Shown: piece after piece, positions 1,798-18,782 of the stretch | Layout: each line of letters begins with the position of its first letter | Position numbering within the stretch: position 1 is the first letter of the stretch | Assembly: GCF_025980345.1 (NCBI RefSeq) | Contig: NZ_JAPDUI010000008.1 | Location: 1-64,000, forward strand | Direction: 5' to 3' | Origin: Arenimonas sp. GDDSR-1 | GTDB lineage: Bacteria > Pseudomonadota > Gammaproteobacteria > Xanthomonadales > Xanthomonadaceae | DNA: 64,000 bases | Position numbers and translations under genes: made by a program | Notes under the pieces: generated by a model | What the model saw: only the letters and a program-made list of their open reading frames with translations | Database searches by the model: none | Told to the model about the DNA's origin: nothing

Positions 1798-4700
1798 GTC
1801 TGGTCGAGTTTTCGACACGGCGGCGGGTTACCGTCGCGATGGTCACCTTCACCTTCGTGCTGTTCGGGCTCATCGCCCTGGGCAATCTGAAGGTCAACCT
1901 GCTGCCGGATCTGAGTTACCCGACGCTGACCGTGCGCACCGAATACACCGGTGCCGCGCCCGCTGAAATCGAAACCCTGATCAGCGAGCCGCTGGAGGAA
2001 TCCCTCGGTGTGGTCAAGAACCTGCGTAAAATCAAATCGATTTCGCGTACCGGCCAGAGCGATGTGGTTCTCGAGTTCGCCTGGGGCACCGATATGGACC
2101 AGGCGGGCCTCGAGGTCCGCGACAAGCTCGAACTGCTGCGTCTTCCTCTGGAAGCCAAATCGCCGGTCGTGCTGCGCTTCAATCCGAGTACCGAGCCGAT
2201 CATGCGTCTCGGTCTGGTCCTGCCGGAGAAAGTGTCCGGCAGCCGCCAGGCCCAGCTGATCCAGCTGCGCCGTTTTGCCGAAGAAGATCTGAAAAAGCGT
2301 CTTGAACCGGTCGACGGCGTTGCCGCGGTCAAGGTCGCCGGCGGTCTTGAAGATGAAATCCAGGTCGCCATCGACAACGAGCGCCTGTCGCAGCTGAACC
2401 TGTCGGTCGAAACCGTCATCAACCGCCTGCGCCAGGAAAACATCAACATCTCCGCCGGTCGCATCGAAGAAGGCAGCGAACGCTATCTGGTGCGCACCGT
2501 CAACCAGTTCGCCGATCTGGATACCATGGCCGACATGCTGGTGGCCAATACCGCCTTCGGTGTCCCGGTCAAGCTCAAGGATGTTGCGACGGTCACTCAG
2601 GGTTACAAGGAACGGCAGGCCATCATCCGCGTCGGCGGCCGCGAAGCCATCGAATTGGCGCTCTACAAGGAAGGCGATGCCAATACCGTGGCCGTGGCCA
2701 AATCGGTCAAGCAGGCACTCCAGCGCATGCAGGGCGATGGCGGCGCGTCCGATTCCGGAAAGCCGGCAAAAGCCGTCGCCGAGGGCGTCTATGAAATCGA
2801 CGGGCTGGAACTGACCACCATCGAAGACGCCTCCCTGTTCATCGAGAGCGCACTTTCCGAAGTCAAGAAGGAAGCGCTGCTCGGCGGCGTCTTCTCGATC
2901 CTGATCATCTTCTTCTTCCTGCGCGACGGCTGGAGCACTTTCGTCATCGGCCTGTCCCTGCCGATATCGATCGTGGCCACGTTCTTCTTCATGGACCAGT
3001 TCGGCCTCAGCTTGAATGTGATGTCGTTGGCGGGACTGGCACTGGCAACCGGCATGGTGGTCGATGACTCCATCGTCGTGCTGGAATCCATCGCCAAGGC
3101 CCGCGAGCGCGGACTCGGCATTCTGGATGCCGCCATCAAAGGCGCCGGCGAAGTCAGCATGGCGGTGGTCGCGTCGACACTGACCACGGTGGCCGTGTTC
3201 TTCCCGCTGGTTTTCGTGGAAGGCGTCGCCGGCCAGCTGTTCAAGGATCAGGCATTGACCGTTTCGATTGCGCTGATGATTTCGCTGATCGTCTCGCTGA
3301 CCCTGATTCCGATGCTCTCCTCGCTGAAGGCACATTCGCCGATGGCCTTCGCCGAAGACAACCAGCAACCGACGGCCGCCCGGGAGAAATGGCATCAGTT
3401 TCTGGCCAGTCTGAAGGAACTGTTCCGCTATCCGCTGCAGCGTGACTGGAAACGGCCCCTGGCCTATGCCGCATGGGTCCTTCTCGTTCCGCTCAAAATA
3501 CTGACGGCGCTGATCTATGTCATCGCCCTGCTGTTCAGCCTCGGATATCCGCTTGCCGTCTTCGGCATTACCTGGGTCATCGCCACCTTCAGCCGTTTCG
3601 GCAAGGGCACCGGCGGCAAGGGCATGGTCTGGTTGGGTGAAAAAATCATCCGGCCCTACGATTACGCCGCCGACTATTACCGTGGAATCCTTCCCAAAGC
3701 CCTGGAGCGCCCGCGTAAAATCCTGATCAGCGCTGCAGTCGCCTTCATCGCATCGCTGCTGCTGGCCACGACTCTCGGTTCGGACCTGATTCCGCAATTG
3801 GCCCAGGACCGCTTCGAAATGACGGCCAAGCTCGCTCCCGGCACGCGCCTCGAAGAAACCGACCAACTGGTCAGCGCCATCCAGTCCAGACACAAGGCCG
3901 ATACCGATATCCAGGCGCTTTACGGCGTCAGCGGTTCGGGCACGCGGCTGGATGCGAATCCGACCGAGTCCGGTGAAAACATCGCCAAGCTCAGCGTCGT
4001 TCTGGGCAAAGGCTACAGCCGCGACAGTGAAGCCGCCATCACCGAACGTCTGCGTGAAACAATGCGCGCCTATCCGGATGTGCAGGTCAAGTTCGGCCGG
4101 CCTGAACTGTTCAGCTTCTCCACGCCGCTGGAAATCGAAATCCGCGGCGCCGATCTGAATTCCCTGGAGAAATCCGCACGGAAACTTTCCGCCATGCTTC
4201 AGAAGGCCGAGCATTTCGCGGACGTCAAATCCAGCGTCGAACAGGGTTACCCGGAAATCCAGATCATTTTCGATCAGGACCGGGCCGCTGCGCTCGGACT
4301 GACCTCGCGGCAGATCGCCGATCAGGTGGTCAAGCAGGTCCGCGGCGAGGTAGCCACCCGTTACAGTTTCCGTGACCGGAAAATCGATGTGCTGGTCCGT
4401 GCCGAAGAACAGGCGCGGTCATCGGTCGATGATATCCGCAACATCATCATCAATCCGGCTGCGCCGCAACCGGTGACGCTGGCCTCGGTCGCGCAGGTCG
4501 TGGAAACCATCGGTCCCAGCGAAATCAACCGCGTCGACCAGACCCGCGTCGCCATCATTTCCGCCAACCTGCGCGATGTCGACCTCGGCACCGCGGTGTC
4601 GGAAGTACGCGACATGGTGGCTGCCGATCCGCTTTCGGCCGATGTCCGCATCGCCTTCGGCGGCCAGAGCGAGGAGCTCGATCGCTCCCGCAACTCGCTG

Positions 4701-5243
4701 TTCTTTGCCTTCGGGCTGGCCATATTCCTGGTCTATCTGGTCATGGCCTCGCAGTTCGAATCGCTGCTGCATCCCTTCGTCATCCTGTTCTCGATTCCAT
4801 TGGCGATGGTCGGCGCCGTCCTGGCGCTGTGGCTGAGCGGCTCGCCGATTTCGGTCGTGGTATTCATCGGCCTGATCCTTCTGGTCGGCATCGTGGTCAA
4901 GAACGCCATCGTGCTGATCGACAAGGTCAACCAACTGCGCGAAGAGGGCGTCGCCAAGCGCGAAGCCATATGCCGCGGTGCGGAATCCCGGCTTCGCCCG
5001 ATCATCATGACCACGCTGACCACGTTGTTCGGATTCGCGCCGCTGGCCTTTTTCGGCGGCGAGGGTGCCGAGGTGCGGGCGCCGATGGCGTTGACCGTGA
5101 TCGGCGGCCTGACGGTTTCGACCCTGCTGACGCTGGTCGTCATTCCGATCGTCTACGATCTTCTGGACCGCAAGCCGGACAGCTATTACAAGGCGCGTGG
5201 TGCGTTGCATCATGATGTCCTCGAAGGCGGGAGCATCGGGTGA
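1794..5243 (+). CDS. RND efflux pump, HAE1-type, with an enlarged central loop (1149 aa)
   Basis: This is an inner-membrane proton-driven efflux permease. The start LVEFSTRRRVTVAMVTFTFVLFGLIALGNL is TM1, and the TM4 proton-relay pair is intact (VVDDS, Asp424-Asp425). Both porter domains and the repeat TM7-12 can be followed to the C-terminus. At 1149 residues it is about 100 longer than AcrB-type pumps. The excess lies at about residues 515-635, between TM6 and TM7, and contains soluble sequence plus extra hydrophobic segments (LLVPLKILTALIYVIALLFSL and onward). It overlaps the adaptor by four bases and the second RND gene by four bases. No outer-membrane factor gene follows, so a TolC-type channel must be encoded elsewhere. 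Substrates cannot be deduced. Confidence 0.92.
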   Translation: MSLVEFSTRRRVTVAMVTFTFVLFGLIALGNLKVNLLPDLSYPTLTVRTEYTGAAPAEIETLISEPLEESLGVVKNLRKIKSISRTGQSDVVLEFAWGTDMDQAGLEVRDKLELLRLPLEAKSPVVLRFNPSTEPIMRLGLVLPEKVSGSRQAQLIQLRRFAEEDLKKRLEPVDGVAAVKVAGGLEDEIQVAIDNERLSQLNLSVETVINRLRQENINISAGRIEEGSERYLVRTVNQFADLDTMADMLVANTAFGVPVKLKDVATVTQGYKERQAIIRVGGREAIELALYKEGDANTVAVAKSVKQALQRMQGDGGASDSGKPAKAVAEGVYEIDGLELTTIEDASLFIESALSEVKKEALLGGVFSILIIFFFLRDGWSTFVIGLSLPISIVATFFFMDQFGLSLNVMSLAGLALATGMVVDDSIVVLESIAKARERGLGILDAAIKGAGEVSMAVVASTLTTVAVFFPLVFVEGVAGQLFKDQALTVSIALMISLIVSLTLIPMLSSLKAHSPMAFAEDNQQPTAAREKWHQFLASLKELFRYPLQRDWKRPLAYAAWVLLVPLKILTALIYVIALLFSLGYPLAVFGITWVIATFSRFGKGTGGKGMVWLGEKIIRPYDYAADYYRGILPKALERPRKILISAAVAFIASLLLATTLGSDLIPQLAQDRFEMTAKLAPGTRLEETDQLVSAIQSRHKADTDIQALYGVSGSGTRLDANPTESGENIAKLSVVLGKGYSRDSEAAITERLRETMRAYPDVQVKFGRPELFSFSTPLEIEIRGADLNSLEKSARKLSAMLQKAEHFADVKSSVEQGYPEIQIIFDQDRAAALGLTSRQIADQVVKQVRGEVATRYSFRDRKIDVLVRAEEQARSSVDDIRNIIINPAAPQPVTLASVAQVVETIGPSEINRVDQTRVAIISANLRDVDLGTAVSEVRDMVAADPLSADVRIAFGGQSEELDRSRNSLFFAFGLAIFLVYLVMASQFESLLHPFVILFSIPLAMVGAVLALWLSGSPISVVVFIGLILLVGIVVKNAIVLIDKVNQLREEGVAKREAICRGAESRLRPIIMTTLTTLFGFAPLAFFGGEGAEVRAPMALTVIGGLTVSTLLTLVVIPIVYDLLDRKPDSYYKARGALHHDVLEGGSIG

Positions 5244-8200
5244 AAAGTCTTGCCGAGCTGAGTCTGCGACGGCCGGTCACGGCGGTCATGTGTTTCGTTT
5301 CGCTGGTGGTCATCGGCCTGCTGGCCGCTGTCAGGCTGCCGTTGGAGCAGTTCCCCGACATCAACGTGCCTTTCGTTTTCGTCAGCGTGCCTTATCCCGG
5401 TTCCACCCCGCAGGAAGTCGAACGCCAGATCACCCGGCCGGTCGAGGAGGCGTTGTCGACGCTTCCCGGCATTTCGATGATGAATTCGACGTCGCGCTCG
5501 GACAATGCCGGCATTTTCCTGATGTTTTCGGACTGGGATCGCGACATCGCAATCACCGCCAGCGAAGCGCGTGATCGCATCGATGCCATCCGCTCCGAAC
5601 TGCCGGAAGATGTTCAGCGCTATTTCGTCCAGAAATTCTCGCCGAACGACGAGCCGCTGATGCGGGTGCGCTTCGCCTCCGACCGCGACCTCAAAAACAG
5701 CTATACCCTGATCCAGCATGCAATCCAGAAGCGCATCGAACGCATTCCCGGTGTCGCCCGCGTCGACATCACCGGCGCACCGCCGCCGGAAGTCGAAATC
5801 GCCATCGATCCGGTCCGCCTTGCCAGCCACAATGTCGGCCTCAACGAGCTGTCGGCCAAACTGCAATCCGTCAATTTCTCGGTTTCAGCCGGCGACATCA
5901 ACGACCGCGACCGCCGTATCCGGGTACAGCCGGTCGGCGAAATCAAGACGGTCGAGGAGCTTCGCAGTCTGCCCTTGAATGACAAGGGCCTGAGGCTCGA
6001 TGACATCGCCGATGTGCGCTTCAAGTTGCAGCGCCAGGACTTCGGCCGCCGCCTCGATGGCCGGCCGGCGGTCGGTGTCGACATCCTGCGCGAACAGAAC
6101 GCCAATCTAGTCAATGTCGCCGATGCCATCCATGCCGAGATCGAAAAAATCAAGCAAGATCCGGAGCTTGCCGGCATCAAGTTCATCATCGTCAGCGATT
6201 CCGCGGAAAGCGTAAAGAGTTCCATTGCCGAACTCATCGAGGCCGGCATGATCGGCTCGCTGCTGTCGATCATCGTGCTGTTCTATTTCCTGCGCCACTG
6301 GCCTTCCACGCTGATGGTCAGTCTGGCTATTCCGATCTGCATCGTGATCACACTGGGTGTGATGTACTTCACCGGCATGACACTGAATGTCCTGTCGATG
6401 ATGGGTTTGCTACTAGGCATCGGCATGCTGGTCGACAACGCGGTCGTGGTGGTCGAGAGCATCTATCAGTACCGCGAAAAATATCCGGATAATCCGATGA
6501 TGTGCGCCATCGAGGGCACCAAATCGGTGCAACTGGCGATTTCCTGCGGCACCCTGACTTCCATCATCGTATTCCTGCCGAACCTGTTCGGCGACAAGAA
6601 CTTCATCTCCATCTATCTCTCGCAGGTCGCCCTGACCATCACCATCTCGCTGCTGGCTTCCTGGCTGGTCGCGGTCAGCCTGATTCCGATGATTTCGGCG
6701 CGACTGAAAACACCGCCGGCCATCACCCAGTCGCACGGATTCGTACCGGCATTGACCCGGCGCTATGAAGCATTCCTGGCCTGGACGCTGGCGAACCGCA
6801 GGCTTTCCCTGCTCGGCATCCTGATGATCATCTTAGTCAGCATGGTGCCTTTCAAATTCACCAAGTTCGACATGAACTCGAACGAAGTGGGCCGTGAACT
6901 GTCCATGTATTTCAAGTGGAACGGCGCTTATTCCCTGGAGCAGATGTCCGATGAGGTGGCCAAGGTCGAGCAGTTCATGAATGAGAACCGGGAGCGCTAT
7001 CAGGTCAAGCAGGTGTATGTGTTCTTCAGCGAGCAGGGCTGGGGCGGGATGAACCTGACCCTGCGCGATGATCTGCGTTCCTGCGGAAGTTTCGTTTCAC
7101 GCAGCATCCGACTGGTCAACCCGGAGTACCTCTGTGCGATGTCCTCGGAACAGGTGCAGGAAATGATCCGGGCCGAGATTCCCAAGTTCGCGCGGGCGGA
7201 AGTCGGCTTTCAGGGCGGCGGCGGCCCCGGCGGCGGAGGCGGCGGCGGTCAGGACAACAGCGTAGAAATCTTCCTGAACGGCGATTCCACCGAAATGCTC
7301 AAGAAAATCGGAGCCGAAGTGATTCCGGTGCTGGCAAAACAGCCGGAACTGCGCGATGTGCGTCTCAACAGCGGTGACGAAAACAGCGAAATCCGCGTCA
7401 GCGTCGACCGCGACCGCGCCGGAGCCCTGGGCTTCAGCGCGCAGGATGTGGCCCAATACATCAGCATCGCATTGCGCGGTACCACGCTGCGCGAGTTCCG
7501 CAAGGATGACCAAGAAATTCCGATGTGGGTGCGTTTCGCCGGAGCGGAACAGTTCAGGGTCGAAGAGCTGTCAGGCCTGAACCTGCGACGCCCGGACGGC
7601 ACCACGGTTCCGCTGATGTCCGTCATCAATGTCGAGATCCGTAAAGGCGACAGCGAGATCTACCGTCAGGACCGCTTGACTTCGCTGTCCATCAAGGCCA
7701 ATAAAGCCGACAACGTGACCACCGAAGAAGCCATGGCGGCATTCAAGAAAGTGCTGAACAATCTGCCTCCGGGGTATTCCTGGAGCGAAAGCCAGGGCGG
7801 GTTCAACGGCGGCGATGCCGGAGGGCAGATGGCGACGAACACCCTGATTGCCCTGCTAATGATTCTGATTGTTATGGCGGCGCTGTTCGAGTCGATGCTG
7901 ATGCCGCTGGCGATCCTGACCAGCATCCTGTTCTCGGCGCTCGGCGTGTTCTGGCTGTTTGCCCTGACCGGCACGACATTCTCGATCATGGCCTCGATCG
8001 GCATTCTGGTTCTGATGGGCGTGGTGGTGAACAACGGCATCGTGCTGTTCGAACACATCAACGCCCTGCGGCGCAGCGGCCATGCCCGAACCGAGGCATT
8101 GATCATGGGTTGCAAGGAGCGTCTGCGTCCGATTCTGATGACCATGGGTACCACCATTCTCGGCATGTTGCCGCTGTGTTTCGGTACCACCCAGATCGGC

Positions 8201-8389
8201 GGTGATGGTCCGGCCTACTATCCGATGGCGCGTGCGGTGGTGGGCGGCCTGGCGTTCTCGACCATCGTCAGCCTGATCTTTTTGCCGACCATCTATGCGG
8301 CATTGGATGACCTGCGCATCAAGACCGGAGGCGTCATCGCCCGGGCCAAAGACAAGGCGCCGTTGCGGCGCTTCGTGAAACCGGCCTGA
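5240..8389 (+). CDS. second RND efflux pump of the operon (1049 aa)
   Basis: A full-length HAE1-like RND permease that overlaps the previous RND by four bases. One adaptor with two RND genes recalls MdtABC-type systems, in which two different permeases form a mixed trimer. The TM4 relay reads LVDNA (Asp399-Asn400), so the second aspartate of the usual Asp-Asp pair is asparagine, unlike the first pump in the operon, which keeps both. A glycine-rich run with one proline sits at residues 659-670, in the second porter half. I infer that the two permeases may have unequal roles in energisation. Asn at this position also occurs in other RND subgroups, so it does not prove inactivity. Confidence 0.9.
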   Translation: MKSLAELSLRRPVTAVMCFVSLVVIGLLAAVRLPLEQFPDINVPFVFVSVPYPGSTPQEVERQITRPVEEALSTLPGISMMNSTSRSDNAGIFLMFSDWDRDIAITASEARDRIDAIRSELPEDVQRYFVQKFSPNDEPLMRVRFASDRDLKNSYTLIQHAIQKRIERIPGVARVDITGAPPPEVEIAIDPVRLASHNVGLNELSAKLQSVNFSVSAGDINDRDRRIRVQPVGEIKTVEELRSLPLNDKGLRLDDIADVRFKLQRQDFGRRLDGRPAVGVDILREQNANLVNVADAIHAEIEKIKQDPELAGIKFIIVSDSAESVKSSIAELIEAGMIGSLLSIIVLFYFLRHWPSTLMVSLAIPICIVITLGVMYFTGMTLNVLSMMGLLLGIGMLVDNAVVVVESIYQYREKYPDNPMMCAIEGTKSVQLAISCGTLTSIIVFLPNLFGDKNFISIYLSQVALTITISLLASWLVAVSLIPMISARLKTPPAITQSHGFVPALTRRYEAFLAWTLANRRLSLLGILMIILVSMVPFKFTKFDMNSNEVGRELSMYFKWNGAYSLEQMSDEVAKVEQFMNENRERYQVKQVYVFFSEQGWGGMNLTLRDDLRSCGSFVSRSIRLVNPEYLCAMSSEQVQEMIRAEIPKFARAEVGFQGGGGPGGGGGGGQDNSVEIFLNGDSTEMLKKIGAEVIPVLAKQPELRDVRLNSGDENSEIRVSVDRDRAGALGFSAQDVAQYISIALRGTTLREFRKDDQEIPMWVRFAGAEQFRVEELSGLNLRRPDGTTVPLMSVINVEIRKGDSEIYRQDRLTSLSIKANKADNVTTEEAMAAFKKVLNNLPPGYSWSESQGGFNGGDAGGQMATNTLIALLMILIVMAALFESMLMPLAILTSILFSALGVFWLFALTGTTFSIMASIGILVLMGVVVNNGIVLFEHINALRRSGHARTEALIMGCKERLRPILMTMGTTILGMLPLCFGTTQIGGDGPAYYPMARAVVGGLAFSTIVSLIFLPTIYAALDDLRIKTGGVIARAKDKAPLRRFVKPA

Positions 8390-8396
8390 GGGCCGG

Positions 8397-9596
8397 TCAG
8401 CCGAGTTTGATGAAAAAGGCCGCGCCGGCAACCCAGACCGCCAGGGCGGTGCCGGTATTGGTCAGGATGAAGTTCACCAGGATGCGTGCGAAGCGGTTTT
8501 TCCACCAGCCCGAGATTTCGATGGTATCGTCCTTGAGCTTCAGCAGATCTTCATACGTCGGTTTGCGCAGTTTGGCCTCGACATAGGCCGAAACCATGCC
8601 CGAGCTCAGGGCCGGGTGCAGCGGCGTCAACGGCGAGGCGATGAACGCGGCCAGACAGCTCAGCCAGTGCCCCTTGGCGGCGATGCACCCGATCAGTCCG
8701 CCGGTACCGGTGATGAGCGCCCATTGCAGCAACAGCATTCCGGCCAATTTCATCCCGCCTTCGTGGATGCCCCAGGCGAATCCGCCGATGAGAAAGACGG
8801 CAATGAACAGGCTGAACCAGGGCATCTCCGATTTTGCCGGAATGCTTTCCAGTGAAGCGAGTACGGCGCCATCCAGATTTGCGGAATCCTGAAGTGCGCG
8901 TTCCAGGCCGGCCAGATGGCCGGCGCCGACCACCGCAAGGACGTTTTTGACATCATCGTGCGCATGCAGCTGCAACAGCTTGGCGGCCATGTAACGGTCG
9001 CGTTCGGCGATGATGCTTTCATACAGTTCCGGAGTCTGCTTGGCGAAATCGCCGAAGCTCGACTCCAGCATGTCGCCTTCCTTGAGCTGCTCGATTTCGG
9101 TCTCGCCGATGTCATCCGAGCTGATTAGGCTGGCGCCCAGGCCGGCCACCAACTGACCGCGCTTGAAAAAGCCCAGCTTCGACCAGCTGCGCTTTAAGGT
9201 GATGCCGGCGTCGCGATCGATCAGCGCCATGCGCAGGCCGCGGGCTTCGGCTTCCTGCGCGGCGGCCTTGAGCTCAGCGCCGGGTTCGATGCCCAGCTGT
9301 TCGGCCAATCGGCGTTGGTAGGCGGCCAAAGACAGGTTGGCGGCGACCAGTCCGATCTTGTCTTCCTTAATGATCTGGAAAATGTCGAGCTTGTAGAGGG
9401 CATCCGGTTGGGTCAACTGCCGATGCCGGTTAACATCGAGCTCCACGGCAACGGTGTCGAAGCCGCCGCTGTCAATCGCGGCTTTGACCGCTTCAAGACT
9501 TTTCAGCGAAACGTGGGCGGTGCCGAGCAGGGTATAGACGACCCCGTTCACGGTGCATTGGCGGACCGGCTGGCCGGCGAAGTCAGGCAGACTCAT
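8397..9596 (-). CDS. TraB/PrgY-family membrane protein
   Basis: The N-terminal two thirds is a TraB domain: the start TLLGTAHVSLKSLEAV and the acidic VAVELD motif are characteristic, with the second conserved GAGHLAGL near the middle. The last 150 residues contain several hydrophobic segments (PWFSLFIAVFLIGGFAWGI, then a Gly/Ala-rich pair, then a final one near the end), so it is a membrane protein with a cytoplasmic or periplasmic TraB head. Family members are linked to pheromone shutdown (PrgY) and to protease-like folds, but the function in Proteobacteria is unclear. I chose ATG 9596 (399 aa) over the TTG at 9602. It follows the agmatine genes closely and is probably in their transcript, without a known functional link. 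Confidence 0.85.
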   Translation of the reverse strand: MSLPDFAGQPVRQCTVNGVVYTLLGTAHVSLKSLEAVKAAIDSGGFDTVAVELDVNRHRQLTQPDALYKLDIFQIIKEDKIGLVAANLSLAAYQRRLAEQLGIEPGAELKAAAQEAEARGLRMALIDRDAGITLKRSWSKLGFFKRGQLVAGLGASLISSDDIGETEIEQLKEGDMLESSFGDFAKQTPELYESIIAERDRYMAAKLLQLHAHDDVKNVLAVVGAGHLAGLERALQDSANLDGAVLASLESIPAKSEMPWFSLFIAVFLIGGFAWGIHEGGMKLAGMLLLQWALITGTGGLIGCIAAKGHWLSCLAAFIASPLTPLHPALSSGMVSAYVEAKLRKPTYEDLLKLKDDTIEISGWWKNRFARILVNFILTNTGTALAVWVAGAAFFIKLG

Positions 9597-9602
9597 CGGC
9601 AA

Positions 9603-10490
9603 TCAATCGCGGTAACGCTTCAGCAGATCGGCATACGCGTCGATCCGGCGGTCACGCAGGAAGGGCCACATGCGCCGGACCTGTTCGCTGCGGCCCAGAT
9701 CGAGCGTTGCGTAAAGTATTTCGGCGGCATCGGTGCCGGCTTCGGCCAGAATCTCGCCCTGCGGTCCGAGCGCATGAGAGCTGCCCCAGAAGCGGATGCC
9801 GCTGGCGCCCAGGGGGGATGCTTCAAAACCGGTCCGGTTGCAGCTCAGGACCGGAATGCCGTTGGCCACGGCGTGACCGCGATGGCTCAACATCCAGGCT
9901 TGCCGTTGCCGTTCGCGTTCTTCAGCCGTGTCGTCTGGATCCCAGCCGATCGCGGTCGGGTAGACCAGCACTTCGGCGCCGGCAAGCGCCATCAGCCGGG
10001 CGGCTTCCGGATACCATTGGTCCCAGCACACCAGTACGCCGATTTTCCCGATGCTGCTGTCGATCGGATGGAAACCGAGGTCGCCCGGCGTGAAATAGAA
10101 TTTTTCATAGAATCCCGGGTCATCCGGAATGTGCATCTTGCGGTACTTTCCGAGCAGCGTGCCGTCTTTTTCGAACACGACGGCGGTGTTGTGATAAAGA
10201 CCGGCGGCACGGCGCTCGAACAGCGAGCCGACCAGTACCACGCGGTTTTTGGCCGCCATTGCCGAAAGCCGTTCGGTGCTCGGGCCGGGTATGGCTTCGG
10301 CGCGGTCGAATTCACCGGCGGATTCGTGCTGGCAGAAATAGGCGCCGTTGTGGAGCTCCTGCAGCAAAACCAGCTCGGCACCGGCGGTAGCCGCCTCGGC
10401 CACGCGTTGCTCGATCTCGGCCAGATTCTCGGCCGCATCGCCGTGGTTGATGTCCTGGATCAGTGCGGCTTTCAGTGTCGAACGGCTCAT
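9603..10490 (-). CDS. aguB: N-carbamoylputrescine amidase
   Basis: A nitrilase-superfamily amidohydrolase of 295 residues, the usual length for this enzyme. The catalytic triad is visible as Glu45 (LLQELHN), Lys118 (KYRKMHIP) and Cys155 (VLVCWDQWYPE). It hydrolyses N-carbamoylputrescine to putrescine, CO2 and ammonia in the cytosol. Its ATG overlaps the stop of agmatine deiminase (ATGA), so the two enzymes are translationally coupled and complete the agmatine-to-putrescine route. Conservation of the YPEAARLMAL segment favours AguB over general nitrilases. Confidence 0.93.
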   Translation of the reverse strand: MSRSTLKAALIQDINHGDAAENLAEIEQRVAEAATAGAELVLLQELHNGAYFCQHESAGEFDRAEAIPGPSTERLSAMAAKNRVVLVGSLFERRAAGLYHNTAVVFEKDGTLLGKYRKMHIPDDPGFYEKFYFTPGDLGFHPIDSSIGKIGVLVCWDQWYPEAARLMALAGAEVLVYPTAIGWDPDDTAEERERQRQAWMLSHRGHAVANGIPVLSCNRTGFEASPLGASGIRFWGSSHALGPQGEILAEAGTDAAEILYATLDLGRSEQVRRMWPFLRDRRIDAYADLLKRYRD

Positions 10491-11600: not shown

Positions 11601-11726
11601 TTAACGCTGACGGGCTTTGAAACGGGGATTCGATTTGCAAATCACAAAGACCTTGCCGCGACGACGGACGACCTTGCAGTCACGATGGCGGGTCTTGGCC
11701 GACTTAAGCGAATTAAGGACTTTCAT
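11601..11726 (-). CDS. rpmJ: 50S ribosomal protein bL36, variant lacking most zinc ligands
   Basis: This 41-residue basic protein starts [20 protein letters not shown] and ends NPRFKARQR, clearly bL36. Standard zinc-binding bL36 carries three cysteines and a histidine; here only Cys17 and Cys30 remain, and the usual histidine position is phenylalanine (NPRFK), so it is of the zinc-independent type (like YkgO of E. coli). It stands alone rather than in the spc ribosomal operon, with its own TATAAT promoter and terminator. An AGGA ribosome-binding site precedes the start. From memory, Xanthomonas has nearly the same 41-residue protein as its bL36. Confidence 0.95.
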
Positions 11727-11762
11727 GGCTATATTCCTAAACAACGAAAACGGGAAGCGGAA

Positions 11763-11810: not shown

Positions 11811-12437
11811 TTAATCCGTGTAGGCTTTGGACAGGGTATGCAGATGCAGGCGCTCGGAGTCCCGCAGGAAGGGGGAAACCAGCATCATTACCTGCACGAT
11901 GCCCTGCTGGATGGCACGCTGCTCGTCCTTTTCGCCGCGGACATTGGCGTAATTCAGCCAAAACGTGGCCAAAACCAGGATATTGGTGGCCAAACCCTCG
12001 ATTTCGGCGGCACTGGCCCGCATGGCTCCGGTTTCGTTCAGACCGCGCATGATGCCGTGTGCATTGGCCGATCCGCGTTTCAGGATCCGGGCAAAGCGAA
12101 GGCGCAAGCTCCTGTTTCTACTCAGGATATTGATGATGTCCCGGTAGATGAAGCGGTAGTTCCAGATGCACTCGAACACCAGATGAAGCTGCAGCCAGAC
12201 ATCTTCAAGGGTGACTTCGCGGCCTTCCGGCGCGACCAAGGCCTGATCCATGCGTTCTTCGAAACGCTGGAACAGCTGCTCGATGATGTCATCCTTGTTG
12301 CGGTAGTGGTAGTACAGGTTGCCGGGGCTGATTTCCAGCTCTTCGGCAATATGGTTGGTGGAGATATTGGTCTCGCCCTGTTCGTTGAACAGGCGCAGCG
12401 CGACATCGAGAATGCGGTTTCGGGTTTTTCCGGACAC
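11811..12437 (-). CDS. TetR-family transcriptional regulator
   Basis: A 208-residue repressor-type protein. The N-terminal helix-turn-helix is clear: ILDVALRLFNEQGETNIS, then IAEELEISPGNLYYHYRNKDDI, residues about 9-50. The rest is an all-helical ligand domain of the length usual for TetR proteins. Its start lies one base after the acyl-CoA-binding protein stop, so the two form an operon, and the pair is transcribed divergently from the fatty acyl reductase. I infer that it senses an acyl-CoA or fatty acid and controls this divergent promoter region. An 18-base imperfect palindrome there (12728-12745) is the best operator candidate. Confidence 0.9.
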   Translation of the reverse strand: MSGKTRNRILDVALRLFNEQGETNISTNHIAEELEISPGNLYYHYRNKDDIIEQLFQRFEERMDQALVAPEGREVTLEDVWLQLHLVFECIWNYRFIYRDIINILSRNRSLRLRFARILKRGSANAHGIMRGLNETGAMRASAAEIEGLATNILVLATFWLNYANVRGEKDEQRAIQQGIVQVMMLVSPFLRDSERLHLHTLSKAYTD

Positions 12438-12438
12438 G

Positions 12439-12696
12439 TCAGTCCTTCAGGGAGTGGACAAGGTCGACATACTTTTTCATGGCCGATTCCCGGCTGGTGC
12501 CCTCCAGCTTCTGCCAGGCCTGATGTTTTGCCGAGGCGACGAAATCGAACATGCCCGGTGCCGGGCCGCTGACATCGCCTTCGGAACCCTGTTTGTAAAG
12601 GGCGTACATGCGAAGCAGGGTGTCGTTGTCGGGACGATGCTTGAGATTTTTGGCTTCCAGGGCCGCCAGCTCGAACTGTTCCTGCAATGTTGCCAT
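12439..12696 (-). CDS. acyl-CoA-binding protein (ACBP)
   Basis: An 85-residue four-helix ACBP, the normal size of the family. The signature region MYALYKQGSEGDVSG (about 32-46) holds the Tyr and Lys that bind the CoA phosphate, and the C-terminal KHQAWQKLEGTSRESAMKKYVDLV is typical. It binds medium- to long-chain acyl-CoA in the cytosol and would buffer or deliver substrate. It is first in a two-gene operon with the TetR regulator and divergent from an acyl-CoA reductase that uses the same substrates. ACBPs are common in eukaryotes and patchy in bacteria, so this context is informative. Confidence 0.93.
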   Translation of the reverse strand: MATLQEQFELAALEAKNLKHRPDNDTLLRMYALYKQGSEGDVSGPAPGMFDFVASAKHQAWQKLEGTSRESAMKKYVDLVHSLKD

Positions 12697-12707
12697 GAAG
12701 AAGTCCT

Positions 12708-12735
12708 TTGACCTGAAGTCGGATTCCAGTATTAT
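12708..12735 (+). promoter_or_regulatory. candidate promoter of the fatty acyl reductase gene
   Basis: TTGACC (12708-12713), a 16-base spacer and TATTAT (12730-12735) lie about 75 bases before the reductase start. The -10 overlaps the imperfect palindrome at 12728-12745. Fit to consensus is fair, not perfect. Confidence 0.45.
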
Positions 12736-12745
12736 GCATTAAACT
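12728..12745. promoter_or_regulatory. candidate TetR operator: 18-base imperfect palindrome
   Basis: The segment AGTATTATGCATTAAACT matches its own reverse complement at 14 of 18 positions and centres on ATGCAT. It overlaps the -10 of the plus-strand promoter and the likely -10 of the minus-strand promoter. Its site, between a TetR gene with its ACBP partner and a divergent target, is where such a repressor would be expected to bind. The assignment is inference. Confidence 0.4.
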
Positions 12746-12767
12746 GCGATTTGCGGTAAAAAATCAA
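12738..12767 (-). promoter_or_regulatory. candidate promoter of the ACBP-TetR operon
   Basis: On the minus strand TTGATT (12767-12762) is followed after 18 bases by TTTAAT (12743-12738), 42 bases upstream of the ACBP start. It is a moderate match and overlaps the candidate operator. Confidence 0.35.
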
Positions 12768-12809
12768 GCACCTATTCAACATTCAACGGGAAAGGGATCG
12801 GGTATTTCT

Positions 12810-14798
12810 ATGGCTTATTTCGTCACCGGCGCCACCGGCTTCATCGGCCGTTTCTTGGTCAGCAACCTGCTGAAGCGCAAAGGCCAGGTGCATGTGCTGG
12901 TTCGCAAAGGATCGGCCAAGAAGCTCAGCCAGATCGGTGAAACGATGGGGTGGGACATGAAGCGCATCGTCCCCGTCACCGGTGATCTCTCCAAACCGAA
13001 ACTCGGACTCAGCGCAGCCCAAATTACCGCGCTCAAGGGAAAAATCCAGCATTTCTTCCATCTGGCCGCCATCTACGACCTGACCGCCGATGCCGACAGC
13101 CAGAAACTGGCCAACATCGGGGGCACCAAGAACGCCCTCGAGCTGGCAACGGTCATCAAAGCCGGATGTTTCCATCACACCAGCTCCATCGCCGCCGCCG
13201 GGCTCTATCCGGGCGTGTTCCGCGAGGATATGTTCGAGGAAGCCGAAGGCCTGAAGGATCCCTACCTCAAGACCAAGCACGAATCGGAAGGCCTGGTGCG
13301 CAAGCAGACGGCAGTGCCTTACCGGATTTACCGGCCATCGATGGTGGTCGGGCATTCCAAAACCGGTGAAATCGACAAAATCGACGGCCCTTACTACCTG
13401 TTCACCCTGATCAAGAGAATCCGTCAGACCCTGCCGCAGTGGATGCCGACTCTGGGTATCGAGGGCGGACGGATCAATGTCGTGCCGGTGGATTTCGTGG
13501 CCGATGCCATGGACCACATCGCCCACAAGAAAGGACTGGACGGCCACTGCTTCCATCTGGTGGACCCGGAACCGATGCGTTTCGGCGAGCTGATGAACAC
13601 CTTCGCCCGCGCCGCGCATGCGCCGGAAATGACCATGCGTCTGGATGCCCGCATGTTCGCGTTCATCCCGGCGCCCATGCGCATGGCGGTCAACAATCTG
13701 CCGCCGGTGAAGCGCCTGACCAACATGATCCTGCGCGATCTTAAAATCCCGAAATCGACTCTGGCCTTCATCACCTATCCGACCCGCTTCGATACCCGCG
13801 AGGCCGAGCGTGCCCTCAAGGGTTCCAAAATCGCAGTGCCGCCGCTTGAAAGCTATGCCTGGCGCCTCTGGGATTACTGGGAACGCAATCTCGATCCCGA
13901 TCTGTTCATCGACCGTTCGTTGCGCGGCAAGGTCGAGGGCAAAGTGGTGCTGATTACCGGCGGCTCGTCCGGCATCGGCAAGGCCGCCGCCATTAAAATC
14001 GCCGAAGCCGGCGGAAAGGTGGTCATTGCCGCACGCGGCGAGGAAGAACTGGAAGCGACCCGCAAGGAAATCTGCGATGCCGGCCATCTGTGCTATGCCT
14101 ACAAGGCGGATCTGGCCGATCTGGACTCCTGCGACAGCCTCATCGAACAGGTCTCCAAACAACATGGCGGCGTCGATATCCTGATCAACAATGCCGGCCG
14201 CTCCATCCGCCGTTCGATCGAGCTGAGCTTTGACCGCTTCCATGATTTCGAGCGCACCATGCAGCTGAATTATTTCGGCTCGTTGCGCCTGATCATGCAG
14301 TCCCTGCCGGGAATGATCGCCAAACGCCGGGGCCACATCATCAATATTTCATCCATCGGCGTTCTGGCCAGCTCACCCCGGTTCTCGGCTTATGTGGCCT
14401 CGAAAGCCGCGCTGGACGCGTTCAGTCATTGTGCGCAGGGCGAATTGTCCGGCAAAGGCATCAGCTTCACCACCATCAACATGCCTCTGGTGAAAACGCC
14501 GATGATCGCTCCGACCAAGATGTACGATTCGGTGCCGACGCTCAGCCCTGAAGAGGCCGCCGATCTGATCGTCAAGGCCATCATCGACAAACCCAGCCGT
14601 GTCGCCACCCGTCTCGGCGTATTCGCCGGCGTCGTGCATGCCGTGTTCCCGAAAGCCTATGAAGTGGTGATGAGCACCGCCTTCGAGCTGTTCCCGGACT
14701 CGGCTGCCGCCAAAGGCATGGCCGGACGCGGCGAGGCCGCGCAGCCGACCAATGAACAGATCGCTTTCGCATCGCTGATGCGAGGCGTGCACTGGTAA
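12810..14798 (+). CDS. two-domain alcohol-forming fatty acyl-CoA/ACP reductase
   Basis: This 662-residue protein joins two short-chain dehydrogenase folds. The N-terminal half is an extended SDR with GATGFIG (residues 7-13), an active-site YLKTK (about 152-156) and fatty acyl-CoA reductase landmarks (HTSSIAAAGLYPGVFREDMF, YPTRFDTREAERAL). The C-terminal half is a classical SDR with TGGSSGIGKA (about 384), NNAGRSIRRS and YVASKAALD (about 528-536). Architecture, length and long motifs agree, as I recall them, with Marinobacter wax-ester fatty acyl reductases, which reduce acyl-CoA or acyl-ACP through the aldehyde to the fatty alcohol with NADPH. It is a single gene with its own promoter and a strong terminator, divergent from ACBP-TetR. 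Aldehyde-only activity on one domain cannot be excluded. Confidence 0.88.
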   Translation: MAYFVTGATGFIGRFLVSNLLKRKGQVHVLVRKGSAKKLSQIGETMGWDMKRIVPVTGDLSKPKLGLSAAQITALKGKIQHFFHLAAIYDLTADADSQKLANIGGTKNALELATVIKAGCFHHTSSIAAAGLYPGVFREDMFEEAEGLKDPYLKTKHESEGLVRKQTAVPYRIYRPSMVVGHSKTGEIDKIDGPYYLFTLIKRIRQTLPQWMPTLGIEGGRINVVPVDFVADAMDHIAHKKGLDGHCFHLVDPEPMRFGELMNTFARAAHAPEMTMRLDARMFAFIPAPMRMAVNNLPPVKRLTNMILRDLKIPKSTLAFITYPTRFDTREAERALKGSKIAVPPLESYAWRLWDYWERNLDPDLFIDRSLRGKVEGKVVLITGGSSGIGKAAAIKIAEAGGKVVIAARGEEELEATRKEICDAGHLCYAYKADLADLDSCDSLIEQVSKQHGGVDILINNAGRSIRRSIELSFDRFHDFERTMQLNYFGSLRLIMQSLPGMIAKRRGHIINISSIGVLASSPRFSAYVASKAALDAFSHCAQGELSGKGISFTTINMPLVKTPMIAPTKMYDSVPTLSPEEAADLIVKAIIDKPSRVATRLGVFAGVVHAVFPKAYEVVMSTAFELFPDSAAAKGMAGRGEAAQPTNEQIAFASLMRGVHW

Positions 14799-14916: not shown

Positions 14917-15474
14917 TCAGGCTTTCGGAGCGCGCGGGGTCGGGGCTTTCGGAAGCACGGCTTTGCCGGCTTTCTTGGCCACGGCGGGCTTCTTCACGGC
15001 TTTCTTGACCGGCACGGCGGCTTTCTTGGCAACCGGGGCTTTGCCATTCTGCTTGCGCAGCTCGGCAGTCAGGGACTCGACGCGCTTGTTCAGGCCGGCC
15101 AGATCCTCACGGGTCGGCACGCCGAGGCGGGTCAGTGCGCGCTGGACGCGGTCTTCAAAGACCTTTTCCATGCGGTCCCAGGTGTCGGTGGCTTTTTCGC
15201 GGACGTTTTCGACGCGGTCTTCAACGCTGGCACGCACGACATCGACTTTGCCGTTGGCCAGTTTACGGGTCTGGGCTTCCAGGCTCATGCCTTTCTTGAC
15301 CAGGGCATCGAACATGTCGGTACCTTCACCTTGGGCGCGTGCCAAGGCACCAACGCCGGCAGCCCAGATTTGCTGGGCAGTGCCAATCAGGTTGTGCGAA
15401 ACGGCTTCGGCGCGTTTTGCGGCCGGCTTGCGGCTTGCGGTTTTGGTGCGGGCGGCTTTTTTGAGCTTGGCCAT
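14917..15474 (-). CDS. phasin / PHA granule-associated protein (PhaF/PhaI-like)
   Basis: A 185-residue protein starting MAKLKKAARTKT, with a GAGGT ribosome-binding site upstream; the longer open frame upstream is not expected to be translated. The middle (about 25-125) is amphipathic helix and coiled coil (NLIGTAQQIWAAGVGALARAQGEG, DRVENVREKATDTWDRMEKVFEDRVQRAL), the pattern of phasins coating lipid or polyester granules. The last 50 residues are Ala-Lys-Pro repeats like the DNA-binding tail of PhaF, which also binds nucleoid. It could coat polyhydroxyalkanoate or neutral-lipid inclusions. No PHA synthase gene is in the window. Confidence 0.85.
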   Translation of the reverse strand: MAKLKKAARTKTASRKPAAKRAEAVSHNLIGTAQQIWAAGVGALARAQGEGTDMFDALVKKGMSLEAQTRKLANGKVDVVRASVEDRVENVREKATDTWDRMEKVFEDRVQRALTRLGVPTREDLAGLNKRVESLTAELRKQNGKAPVAKKAAVPVKKAVKKPAVAKKAGKAVLPKAPTPRAPKA

Positions 15475-16821: not shown

Positions 16822-16898
16822 GAAATGGCCGTGAATTGACGGTGGATTTCATTGTAAGGCTAAAATAGCCCGAGTCCAATCTTGGAGTGCCATCCCGC

Positions 16899-17621
16899 AT
16901 GGCGGTCAATGATCTGCAAAGCCGTCTGGGGCGCCGACTGCGTTGGCAGAAACAGGCGCATCTGTTGGAAAAACAGGATGTTGTACTCGCGAAGTGGTTG
17001 CCCGTTCTCCGTGACTGGCAGGCCAAACGGCTTGCCGCGAGTTTTGCTCATTTCATGGACGATCCGCGCAAGCAGCCGGCGGCTTCGTTTTTCCTGTCCG
17101 ATCTTTACGGTGATGCCGATTTCATGAAACGTGATGAAGAGGCCGCCAAAATACTGCCGAAGATGTCGCGTCTGCTGCCGGAAAATCTGTTGACCGCAGC
17201 GGTGGATGCCATCGAACTTTCCGTGCTCAGCCATGCCGTCGACATGCGCATGGCCCGTGAGCTGCACAGGACCGGAAAAAAACCGGCGGCACTCGATGCC
17301 GCGCTCTATCAGCAGGCCTACCGCAGCGTCGGTCTGCGCCGGCTGCGTCGACGTCAGATCGATCTGGTGATGGATGTCGGCTCCCGACTGGATGCGGTGG
17401 TTCAAAAGCATGGCATCTCGAAGCTGCTGGCGGCTTCACGCCTGCCGGCACGCATGCTCGGACTACAACACCTGCAGAGCTTTCTGGAACGCGGATTCAG
17501 TGCCTTCAACCATCTCGGCGGCGCCGAGGAGTTCCTGGATGAAATCCACCGTCAGGAAACCTGCATCGCGAAGCGCCTTGCAGCGGGTTCCCCGGATCCG
17601 TTTGCGCCGCCTTTCAGCTGA
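16899..17621 (+). CDS. FFLEELY-motif protein (conserved, function unknown)
   Basis: A 240-residue, mostly helical soluble protein. The segment ASFFLSDLYGDADFMKRD (about 60-77) matches the FFLEELY motif that names a family of uncharacterised proteobacterial proteins. Several Arg/Leu-rich helices follow (LRRLRRRQIDLVMDVG). I chose ATG 16899 because a GGAG lies 11 bases upstream; a GTG at 16887 would sit on that site. It is divergent from the patatin gene, and its end overlaps by eight bases the convergent PHA-system gene, so it is embedded in the lipid-granule neighbourhood. No enzymatic motif is visible. Confidence 0.8.
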   Translation: MAVNDLQSRLGRRLRWQKQAHLLEKQDVVLAKWLPVLRDWQAKRLAASFAHFMDDPRKQPAASFFLSDLYGDADFMKRDEEAAKILPKMSRLLPENLLTAAVDAIELSVLSHAVDMRMARELHRTGKKPAALDAALYQQAYRSVGLRRLRRRQIDLVMDVGSRLDAVVQKHGISKLLAASRLPARMLGLQHLQSFLERGFSAFNHLGGAEEFLDEIHRQETCIAKRLAAGSPDPFAPPFS

Positions 17622-17981: not shown

Positions 17982-18782
17982 ATGCAATGGCTTCTGAACA
18001 TCCCCGGACAAACTGCCGTCCTCGTCGGTGACACTCCCGTGCGTGTCGGCTCCGATCCGGCCTCGGAGATTTATCTGGCGCAGCCCGGCGTTGCCCCCGT
18101 GCATGCCCGTCTGCTTCCGGATGCCGGCGGTGTTCTGTGGATCGAGCCGGCTTCCGATGAGGCCGCGGCCGTGCACGTCAACGGCCGGCGGATCGTGCGC
18201 GCGGCGATGCTTGCACCCGGTGATGATCTGCATTTGGGAACCTGCGCGTTGCGGGTCTGTTCCGCGCAAAAACCGGACGCCGCCCGGCGCCCTGCGGAAC
18301 AGCCGATCAATTTTTCGGGCAGGGTGGTGTTGCGCATGCTGACCGGTGCCGATACCGGACGGGCCCATGTGATGGTCAACAGCCTGTGCATCGGACGCTC
18401 TGATCTGTCCGAAGTACGCATCGACGATTCCGCGCTGGCCGAACGTCAAATTCTGCTGCAACGGCAGGGCAATGACATTTTCGCCAAGAATCTCAGCCCG
18501 GTGCTGGAAATGCGTATCAACGGATGGGTCTGTGAAGAGGCCCTGCTGCAGACCGGTGCGCGCATTGCCATCGAGCAGCATCGGTTCCGTCTGGAAGGAC
18601 CCTGCAACGATGCCCAGCCCGTTTCCGGCCCTGAAATCGTCGAGACCGTGCATTTATCGGAGTCGCCGGCTCCGGATATTGCACCGGTCAAGCGTATATT
18701 CAGTCCGGCGCAGTGGATTCTTCTGGCGGCAGCGATTGCCATCTCCGCGGTTTTCATCATTCTGCTGAGTTTTTCGCCGTAA
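17982..18782 (+). CDS. tail-anchored protein with two FHA-like domains
   Basis: The 266-residue protein shows two forkhead-associated-like folds, about residues 15-85 and 125-200, joined by a short linker, and a single C-terminal membrane segment (about 240-262: AQWILLAAAIAISAVFIILLS) with almost nothing after it. The second FHA keeps the phosphothreonine-binding Gly-Arg-Ser (CIGRSDLSE) but reads LAERQI where a Ser-x-x-His is common; the first reads VGSDPAS without the Arg but keeps PVHARL. The N-terminal bulk should be cytosolic. No kinase or phosphatase gene lies nearby. An AAGG ribosome-binding site precedes ATG 17982. Confidence 0.8.
   Translation: MQWLLNIPGQTAVLVGDTPVRVGSDPASEIYLAQPGVAPVHARLLPDAGGVLWIEPASDEAAAVHVNGRRIVRAAMLAPGDDLHLGTCALRVCSAQKPDAARRPAEQPINFSGRVVLRMLTGADTGRAHVMVNSLCIGRSDLSEVRIDDSALAERQILLQRQGNDIFAKNLSPVLEMRINGWVCEEALLQTGARIAIEQHRFRLEGPCNDAQPVSGPEIVETVHLSESPAPDIAPVKRIFSPAQWILLAAAIAISAVFIILLSFSP

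Follow-up and report, generated by a model that had tools for sequence, protein, structure and literature searches.

Which pathway is served by a locus in which an acyl-CoA-binding protein (ACBP) and a TetR-type regulator are encoded opposite a two-domain fatty acyl-CoA reductase (FAR), and which signal might its regulator follow? The locus lies in the first 64,000 nucleotides of contig NZ_JAPDUI010000008.1 of Arenimonas sp. GDDSR-1 (this whole stretch is referred to as the window), which belongs to an assembly of 2.04 Mb in 89 contigs. We consider it probable that these genes form a neutral-lipid (wax-ester) storage locus under a PhaD-like regulator. To our knowledge, little is known about how bacteria regulate wax-ester synthesis, and here a specific candidate regulator comes with just one ACBP and one FAR, in genomes of small size.

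In the proposed mechanism, FAR would reduce long-chain acyl-CoA to fatty alcohol, which a WS/DGAT encoded elsewhere in the genome would join with a second acyl-CoA to form a wax ester; the same enzyme may also produce triacylglycerol. ACBP would act as an acyl-CoA buffer or in its delivery, and a phasin, a patatin-like lipase, and a PHA_gran_rgn protein encoded nearby may serve as coat and in turnover on the resulting lipid inclusions. The TetR protein, expressed from a short operon with ACBP, would bind the 113-bp divergent region and tune transcription of both ACBP-TetR and FAR to fatty-acid supply, and its ligand would most likely be acyl-CoA or another fatty-acid-derived CoA thioester. Regulation could take the form of repression or, as for PhaD, of activation.

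Reductase, carrier, and wax-ester synthase

Domain and family searches assign the window FAR to the Marinobacter two-domain fatty acyl-CoA reductase family. An NAD_binding_4 domain (Pfam, 169.2 bits, residues 5–234) is followed by an adh_short domain (176.2 bits, residues 378–568), each with Rossmann glycines and a YxxxK pair, motifs whose functional meaning we assume for this protein. The protein matches the NCBIfam model PRK07201 over its full length (residues 1–662, 981.5 bits, cut-off 549), whereas the next NCBIfam match reaches 314 bits, and partial matches all score far below PRK07201. It shares 62% identity over 662 residues with a protein of the same architecture from Marinobacter denitrificans. 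In an alignment of the window sequence with 13 others that are 62–80% identical to it, all 14 sequences keep the residues of the two YxxxK pairs unchanged, along with most of each Rossmann glycine motif. These results agree with the preliminary description of the locus, which had recognized a Marinobacter-type reductase and regarded placement in an unrelated short-chain dehydrogenase (SDR) family as an outcome that would weaken its proposal; no such placement was obtained. According to excerpts of one report, Marinobacter acyl-CoA reductases yield fatty alcohol with no release of aldehyde, and the mycobacterial FCR1, 40% identical to MAQU_2507, converts acyl-CoA to aldehyde and alcohol (PMC3522743).

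The ACBP matches PF00887 with 99.7 bits (cut-off 28.3). Its residues Y31, K35, K57, and Y76, which we take to be ligand contacts, align without gaps to ACBP structures. The TetR gene starts with a GTG codon one base past the ACBP stop codon, and the two genes probably share a transcript.

The preliminary description had also called for a search of genomes for a wax-ester synthase and for co-occurrence of the three genes, and both were found. One WS/DGAT is present in the window's genome (G000:C24:91678-92460); it has WS_DGAT_cat and WS_DGAT_C domains, and its translation contains HHCYADG, in agreement with HHxxxDG, presumably the WS/DGAT motif. The gene adjoins a photolyase and an ABC transporter gene and is unlinked to the ACBP-TetR-FAR trio.

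We searched this genome and 60 relatives of the order (61 genomes). FAR is present in 47 of them with at least 62% identity, and the other 14 yielded merely partial matches of the SDR type. This count takes in three special cases: one split between frames (G003), one cut by a contig end (G059), and one that begins at a contig edge (G016). The frame-split gene (L047, G003:C1:2153876-2155782), whose genome belongs to the window's genus and is assembled as one contig, changes frame around residue 212, through either a sequencing error or a broken gene. WS/DGAT is found in exactly the same 47 genomes, and the 14 others gave none. ACBP was detected in 45 FAR genomes (missing from G016, where FAR lies at the contig edge, and from G060), TetR occurs in 46, and neither is found in the remaining 14. 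TetR was counted from matches of at least 37% identity, including a contig-cut fragment in G060; weak matches of at most 33 bits elsewhere were excluded. No genome has more than one ACBP match, so that the window's ACBP is the sole one found in its genome. Both presence and absence were found inside four families (f1, f7, f8, and f12).

Conservation of the gene trio

ACBP and TetR adjoin in all 45 genomes with ACBP, at most 298 bp apart (the TetR of G017, cut by a contig end, is included), and in 39 of these genomes the pair and FAR are transcribed divergently. The existence of the trio in the window is borne out by its open reading frames (ORFs) and Pfam domains, and its conservation in relatives, on which the preliminary description had made its proposal depend, goes beyond chance. 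In one genome (G044), FAR, ACBP, TetR, and WS/DGAT all lie within about 6 kb, and in another (G059), one of five in which the ACBP-TetR pair is separated from FAR, the pair lies beside WS/DGAT.

A wider survey of named genomes, which are partly the same as the 61, covered the best 80 of 583 confirmed FAR stretches. Among these 80, the entire divergent trio was found in 52, and ACBP lay inside the fetched flanks in 60. The 20 without ACBP include all 8 Marinobacter loci, Hahella, three loci of the Endozoicomonas type, and loci whose flanks are cut by contig ends. Within the same 80, Xanthomonadales (Lysobacter, Pseudoxanthomonas, Luteimonas, and others) characteristically have the trio, and it recurs in Marinicella and Wenzhouxiangella. 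Four betaproteobacterial loci (L093, L107, L120, and L131) have WS/DGAT either between the ACBP and TetR genes or next to them; a further betaproteobacterial locus, L114, gave no Pfam match in the two frames scanned.

The regulator is related to PhaD

The TetR protein contains a TetR_N domain (47.4 bits) and a PF13972 domain (147.3 bits). Its predicted structure has a mean predicted local distance difference test score (pLDDT) of 90.5, and a structure search with this model returned 3nnr first (Z 25.4, root-mean-square deviation 1.8, 202 aligned residues), 3rh2 second, and then a mixed set of TetR proteins. The closest solved structure, 3nnr, is Maqu_3571 of Marinobacter, for which we saw no ligand named. 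The matches give no information on the ligand.

Of eight loci with the best TetR homologue, from seven Marinobacter genomes and one of Hahella, seven have a PF05597-type phasin next to it; the eighth (L165) is unlabelled owing to our ORF filter. In two loci from Hahella and Marinobacter (L160 and L162), the PhaD-like TetR gene stands between a gene of the endonuclease/exonuclease/phosphatase family and the phasin gene.

Synthase genes of polyhydroxyalkanoate (PHA) storage provided a reference for PhaD. A search of 293 genomes from the order of Marinobacter gave 135 with matches at E 1e-20, of which ten (181–202 bits) were picked by hand and their wider regions fetched. PhaC is present in 10/10 regions; TetR is labelled in five (L201, L202, L204, L207, and L209), with some hidden by the ORF filter, and phasin in four (L201, L202, L204, and L209). 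Loci of this order show the arrangement PhaC, PhaC, TetR, phasin, phasin, as in L201 (synthases at 8028-9704 and 5324-7039, TetR at 4676-5293, phasins at 3680-4555 and 3185-3664). Since this arrangement matches the gene order phaC1ZC2DFI of the Pseudomonas pha cluster, as given in excerpts of PMC7204398 and PMC9049629, we identify the TetR of these loci as PhaD by synteny, phaZ not being part of the comparison. A class-wide PhaC search (274 genomes) did not reveal the expected spaced synthase pair; synthase pairs 1.9 kb apart were seen in two genomes (G167 and G288).

The window TetR is 37% identical over its full length to the synteny-defined PhaD of L209, and likewise 37% identical to the Marinobacter homologue. 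In an arbitrarily rooted tree of 100 sequences, dereplicated from 157 matches above 100 bits and including six PhaD sequences (L200, L201, L203, L204, L205, and L209), 97 split from the 3 others (100/100). A clade of 35 sequences (99/92) unites PhaD with Pseudomonadales relatives, many of which are linked to phasins, and leaves out the window TetR; the latter belongs to an ACBP-linked clade of 32 (99/88). The window TetR has both domains and full-length homology to PhaD, falls in a separate clade, and is encoded in a genome in which we found no PHA synthase to which it could be linked. On these grounds we classify it as PhaD-related, not as PhaD itself. In excerpts of PMC7204398, PhaD is described as an activator that binds the promoters of phaC1 and phaI, with a beta-oxidation metabolite suggested as its effector. 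Kinship with PhaD suggests a first candidate class of ligand for the window TetR.

A plasmid search with the TetR sequence gave 56 records, with the best places all below 60% identity; the best match, from Cupriavidus oxalaticus and the sole one opened, has no annotated lipid-storage gene around it.

Phasins without PHA synthase

Phasin PF05597, the only phasin family searched (E 0.001), is present in 47/47 FAR genomes compared with 5/14 others, one of the five (G056) being below the curated cut-off. PHA synthase was counted from full PF07167 matches (class I/II) or TIGR01836 matches above cut-off (class III), excluding a weak TIGR01836 match of 21 bits in G059. By this count, phasin is unrelated to PHA synthase: 18 of 21 genomes with a synthase and 34 of 40 lacking one have it (p = 1), as do all 34 FAR genomes in which no synthase was found. 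Within the window's genus, neither PF07167 nor TIGR01836 detected a PHA synthase in any of 27 genomes, and the phasin gene lies at most 2 kb from FAR in all 27.

This association suggests that the phasin and its neighbors are lipid-body proteins. A broader proposal, which we put forward tentatively and hold to be somewhat less probable than its converse, is that the PF05597 phasin, the PHA_gran_rgn protein, and the PhaD-type TetR serve wax-ester/triacylglycerol bodies in this gammaproteobacterial order, be it by recruitment from PHA or as their original role, and form together with ACBP, FAR, and the lipase a full lipid-body module, regulated by fatty acyl-CoA, in organisms lacking PHA synthase. 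Where PHA synthase is absent, phasins are still linked to FAR and WS/DGAT, which raises the possibility that proteins annotated for the PHA granule form the coat of neutral-lipid bodies; if true, many genome annotations would change.

The divergent intergenic region

The ACBP and FAR start codons are separated by 113 bp. A consensus scan found one promoter-like site per direction, with second hexamers that overlap at 12731-12735; two sites against 1.4 expected is a weak signal when taken alone. A block at 12729-12741 is identical in the window's genome and the five nearest genomes, and the next clade has separate promoter-like elements for the two genes. Operators were sought in MAFFT footprints of 6 and 22 intergenic regions and by a palindromic expectation-maximization motif search in 75 regions dereplicated from 92 divergent ones. 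The resulting motifs outscore block-shuffled controls, which were lenient (two shuffles per width, each with 20 starts, against 60 starts on the actual regions). Inspected by eye, the motifs fall on -35/-10-like elements, TTGACC-17-TGnTA at ACBP and TTTG...TCTGGCAA at FAR. We rejected them as operators, as they overlap promoter-like elements that are not common to the window's nearest clade.

Weighing the alternatives

Several observations weigh against a wax-ester storage locus under one PhaD-like regulator. Neither footprints nor the motif search yielded an assignable operator in the divergent regions, and the conserved intergenic blocks are promoter-like and differ among clades. FAR is not divergent from ACBP in 6 of 45 genomes: the pair lies apart from FAR in five (G030, G032, G040, G046, and G059; about 9 kb away in G032), and the sixth, G039, has the same locus in a differing orientation. 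In G060 (L045, G060:C84:1-3057), TetR faces FAR across about 217 bp in a two-gene version of the locus; the loss of ACBP may be real, because this gap is too short for ACBP and TetR's partner has no match anywhere in that genome. Marinobacter has the same FAR unlinked to ACBP or TetR, and the trio is therefore not required for the pathway. The Fisher p values for co-occurrence with FAR (WS/DGAT 4e-14, ACBP 5e-12, TetR 7e-13) ignore ancestry. Finally, PHA synthase is present in 13/47 FAR genomes (and in 8/14 others), and the family names of phasin and PHA_gran_rgn point to PHA.

Some of these points favor a related explanation, in which the lipid-storage locus is the same but TetR senses something other than acyl-CoA (a free fatty acid, a fatty aldehyde or alcohol, or some unrelated signal) or has its own ACBP operon, but not FAR, under its control. 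No operator common to both promoters was found, each gene has a promoter-like element on its own side, and the element on the FAR side is kept in G032, far from ACBP; the ligand cannot be read from the TetR fold, and the pairing of ACBP with TetR is tighter than its link to FAR. Linkage of ACBP-TetR to FAR, WS/DGAT, or phasin across families and the effector proposed for PhaD in the excerpts of PMC7204398 argue in the other direction, and we give this explanation a sizeable but clearly minor share of our confidence. It appears very unlikely that the locus belongs to PHA storage, with FAR as an incidental neighbor or as a source of alcohol for another purpose. The Pfam and NCBIfam names of the neighbors, the relationship of TetR to PhaD, and the synthases of the 13 FAR genomes would fit that explanation, but the genus lacks detectable synthase, phasin follows FAR and not PHA synthase, and FAR and WS/DGAT share the same 47 genomes. 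We consider it equally improbable that FAR is a general SDR or an aldehyde-level enzyme, for instance in detoxification, and not a supplier of alcohol for wax esters: both of its domains belong to the large SDR superfamily and 245 NCBIfam models match at E 0.001, but the gap between PRK07201 and the next model, the identity to the Marinobacter homologue, and the exact co-occurrence with WS/DGAT speak against such a role.

Organization of the locus

The preliminary description placed the locus at 12439-14798, a span that holds ACBP and FAR and leaves the TetR gene outside. While its trio stands, the locus extends further, as the phasin, patatin-like lipase, and PHA_gran_rgn genes, which it did not mention, lie 3' of FAR and are conserved too (Table 1).

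Table 1. Features of the locus in the window
Feature	Position	Strand	Basis
TetR-type regulator, TetR_N and PF13972, PhaD relative, 208 aa, GTG start	11811..12437	-	ORFs, Pfam, tree
Acyl-CoA-binding protein (ACBP), 85 aa	12439..12696	-	ORFs, Pfam
Intergenic region of the divergent genes, promoter-like site in each direction	12697..12809	.	Sequence, footprint, consensus scan
Two-domain fatty acyl-CoA reductase (FAR), Maqu_2507 type, 662 aa	12810..14798	+	ORFs, Pfam, NCBIfam
Phasin PF05597, start set by eye at an internal ATG	14917..15474	-	ORFs, Pfam, NCBIfam
Patatin-like lipase PF01734	15592..16821	-	ORFs, Pfam
PHA_gran_rgn protein PF09650	17614..17889	-	ORFs, Pfam

Three further frames were observed around these genes. 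Past TetR, a short frame (11605-11727, minus strand) resembles ribosomal protein L36 by eye. Between the patatin and PHA_gran_rgn genes, an open frame of 244 aa (16887-17621, plus strand) has no Pfam match at E 0.01 and is a candidate gene. At 17982-18782 (plus strand), an FHA-domain protein is encoded, with a further match to the Pfam model of the type III secretion system YscD cytoplasmic domain.

Comparison with known systems

The preliminary description knew of no regulatory system with this set of genes. Our literature search, judged mostly from titles and with most subscription literature outside its scope, likewise found no published description of the ACBP-TetR-FAR trio and no publication that joins acyl-CoA binding protein, TetR, phasin, and polyhydroxyalkanoate. 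Parts of the arrangement are already in print, however, as is PhaD. Excerpts of PMC10351704 describe two betaproteobacterial scaffolds that pair ACBP with a directly neighboring ws/dgat and also encode a PHA-system protein and a reductase sharing 59% identity with MAQU_2507, and, in Gammaproteobacteria, a reductase 61.9% identical to MAQU_2507 with ACBP near ws/dgat; the word TetR is absent from the main text. Those clusters hold ws/dgat, whereas in the window's genome WS/DGAT is unlinked and ACBP-TetR stands opposite FAR.

The Marinobacter FAR (Maqu_2507 type, PRK07201) resembles the window FAR in length and in the order of NAD_binding_4 and adh_short, the 62% identity referring to the M. denitrificans homologue and not to Maqu_2507 itself. 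Unlike in the window, ACBP lies beside neither FAR nor TetR in the seven Marinobacter genomes. FasR, Thermus FadR, and Bacillus FadR, which respond to acyl-CoA, share the TetR fold and are among the structure matches of the window TetR, with 14–18% identity. Pseudomonas PhaD (phaC1ZC2DFI) is closer, with TetR_N and PF13972 domains, 37% full-length identity, and phasin neighbors in common; the window TetR differs from it in being paired with ACBP, in standing opposite FAR, in its separate clade, and in a genome where no PHA synthase was found. Because ACBP-reductase-ws/dgat clusters are published and PhaD is known as a related storage regulator, we view the locus as a variant on known themes, in which a well-supported pathway is joined by a candidate regulator.

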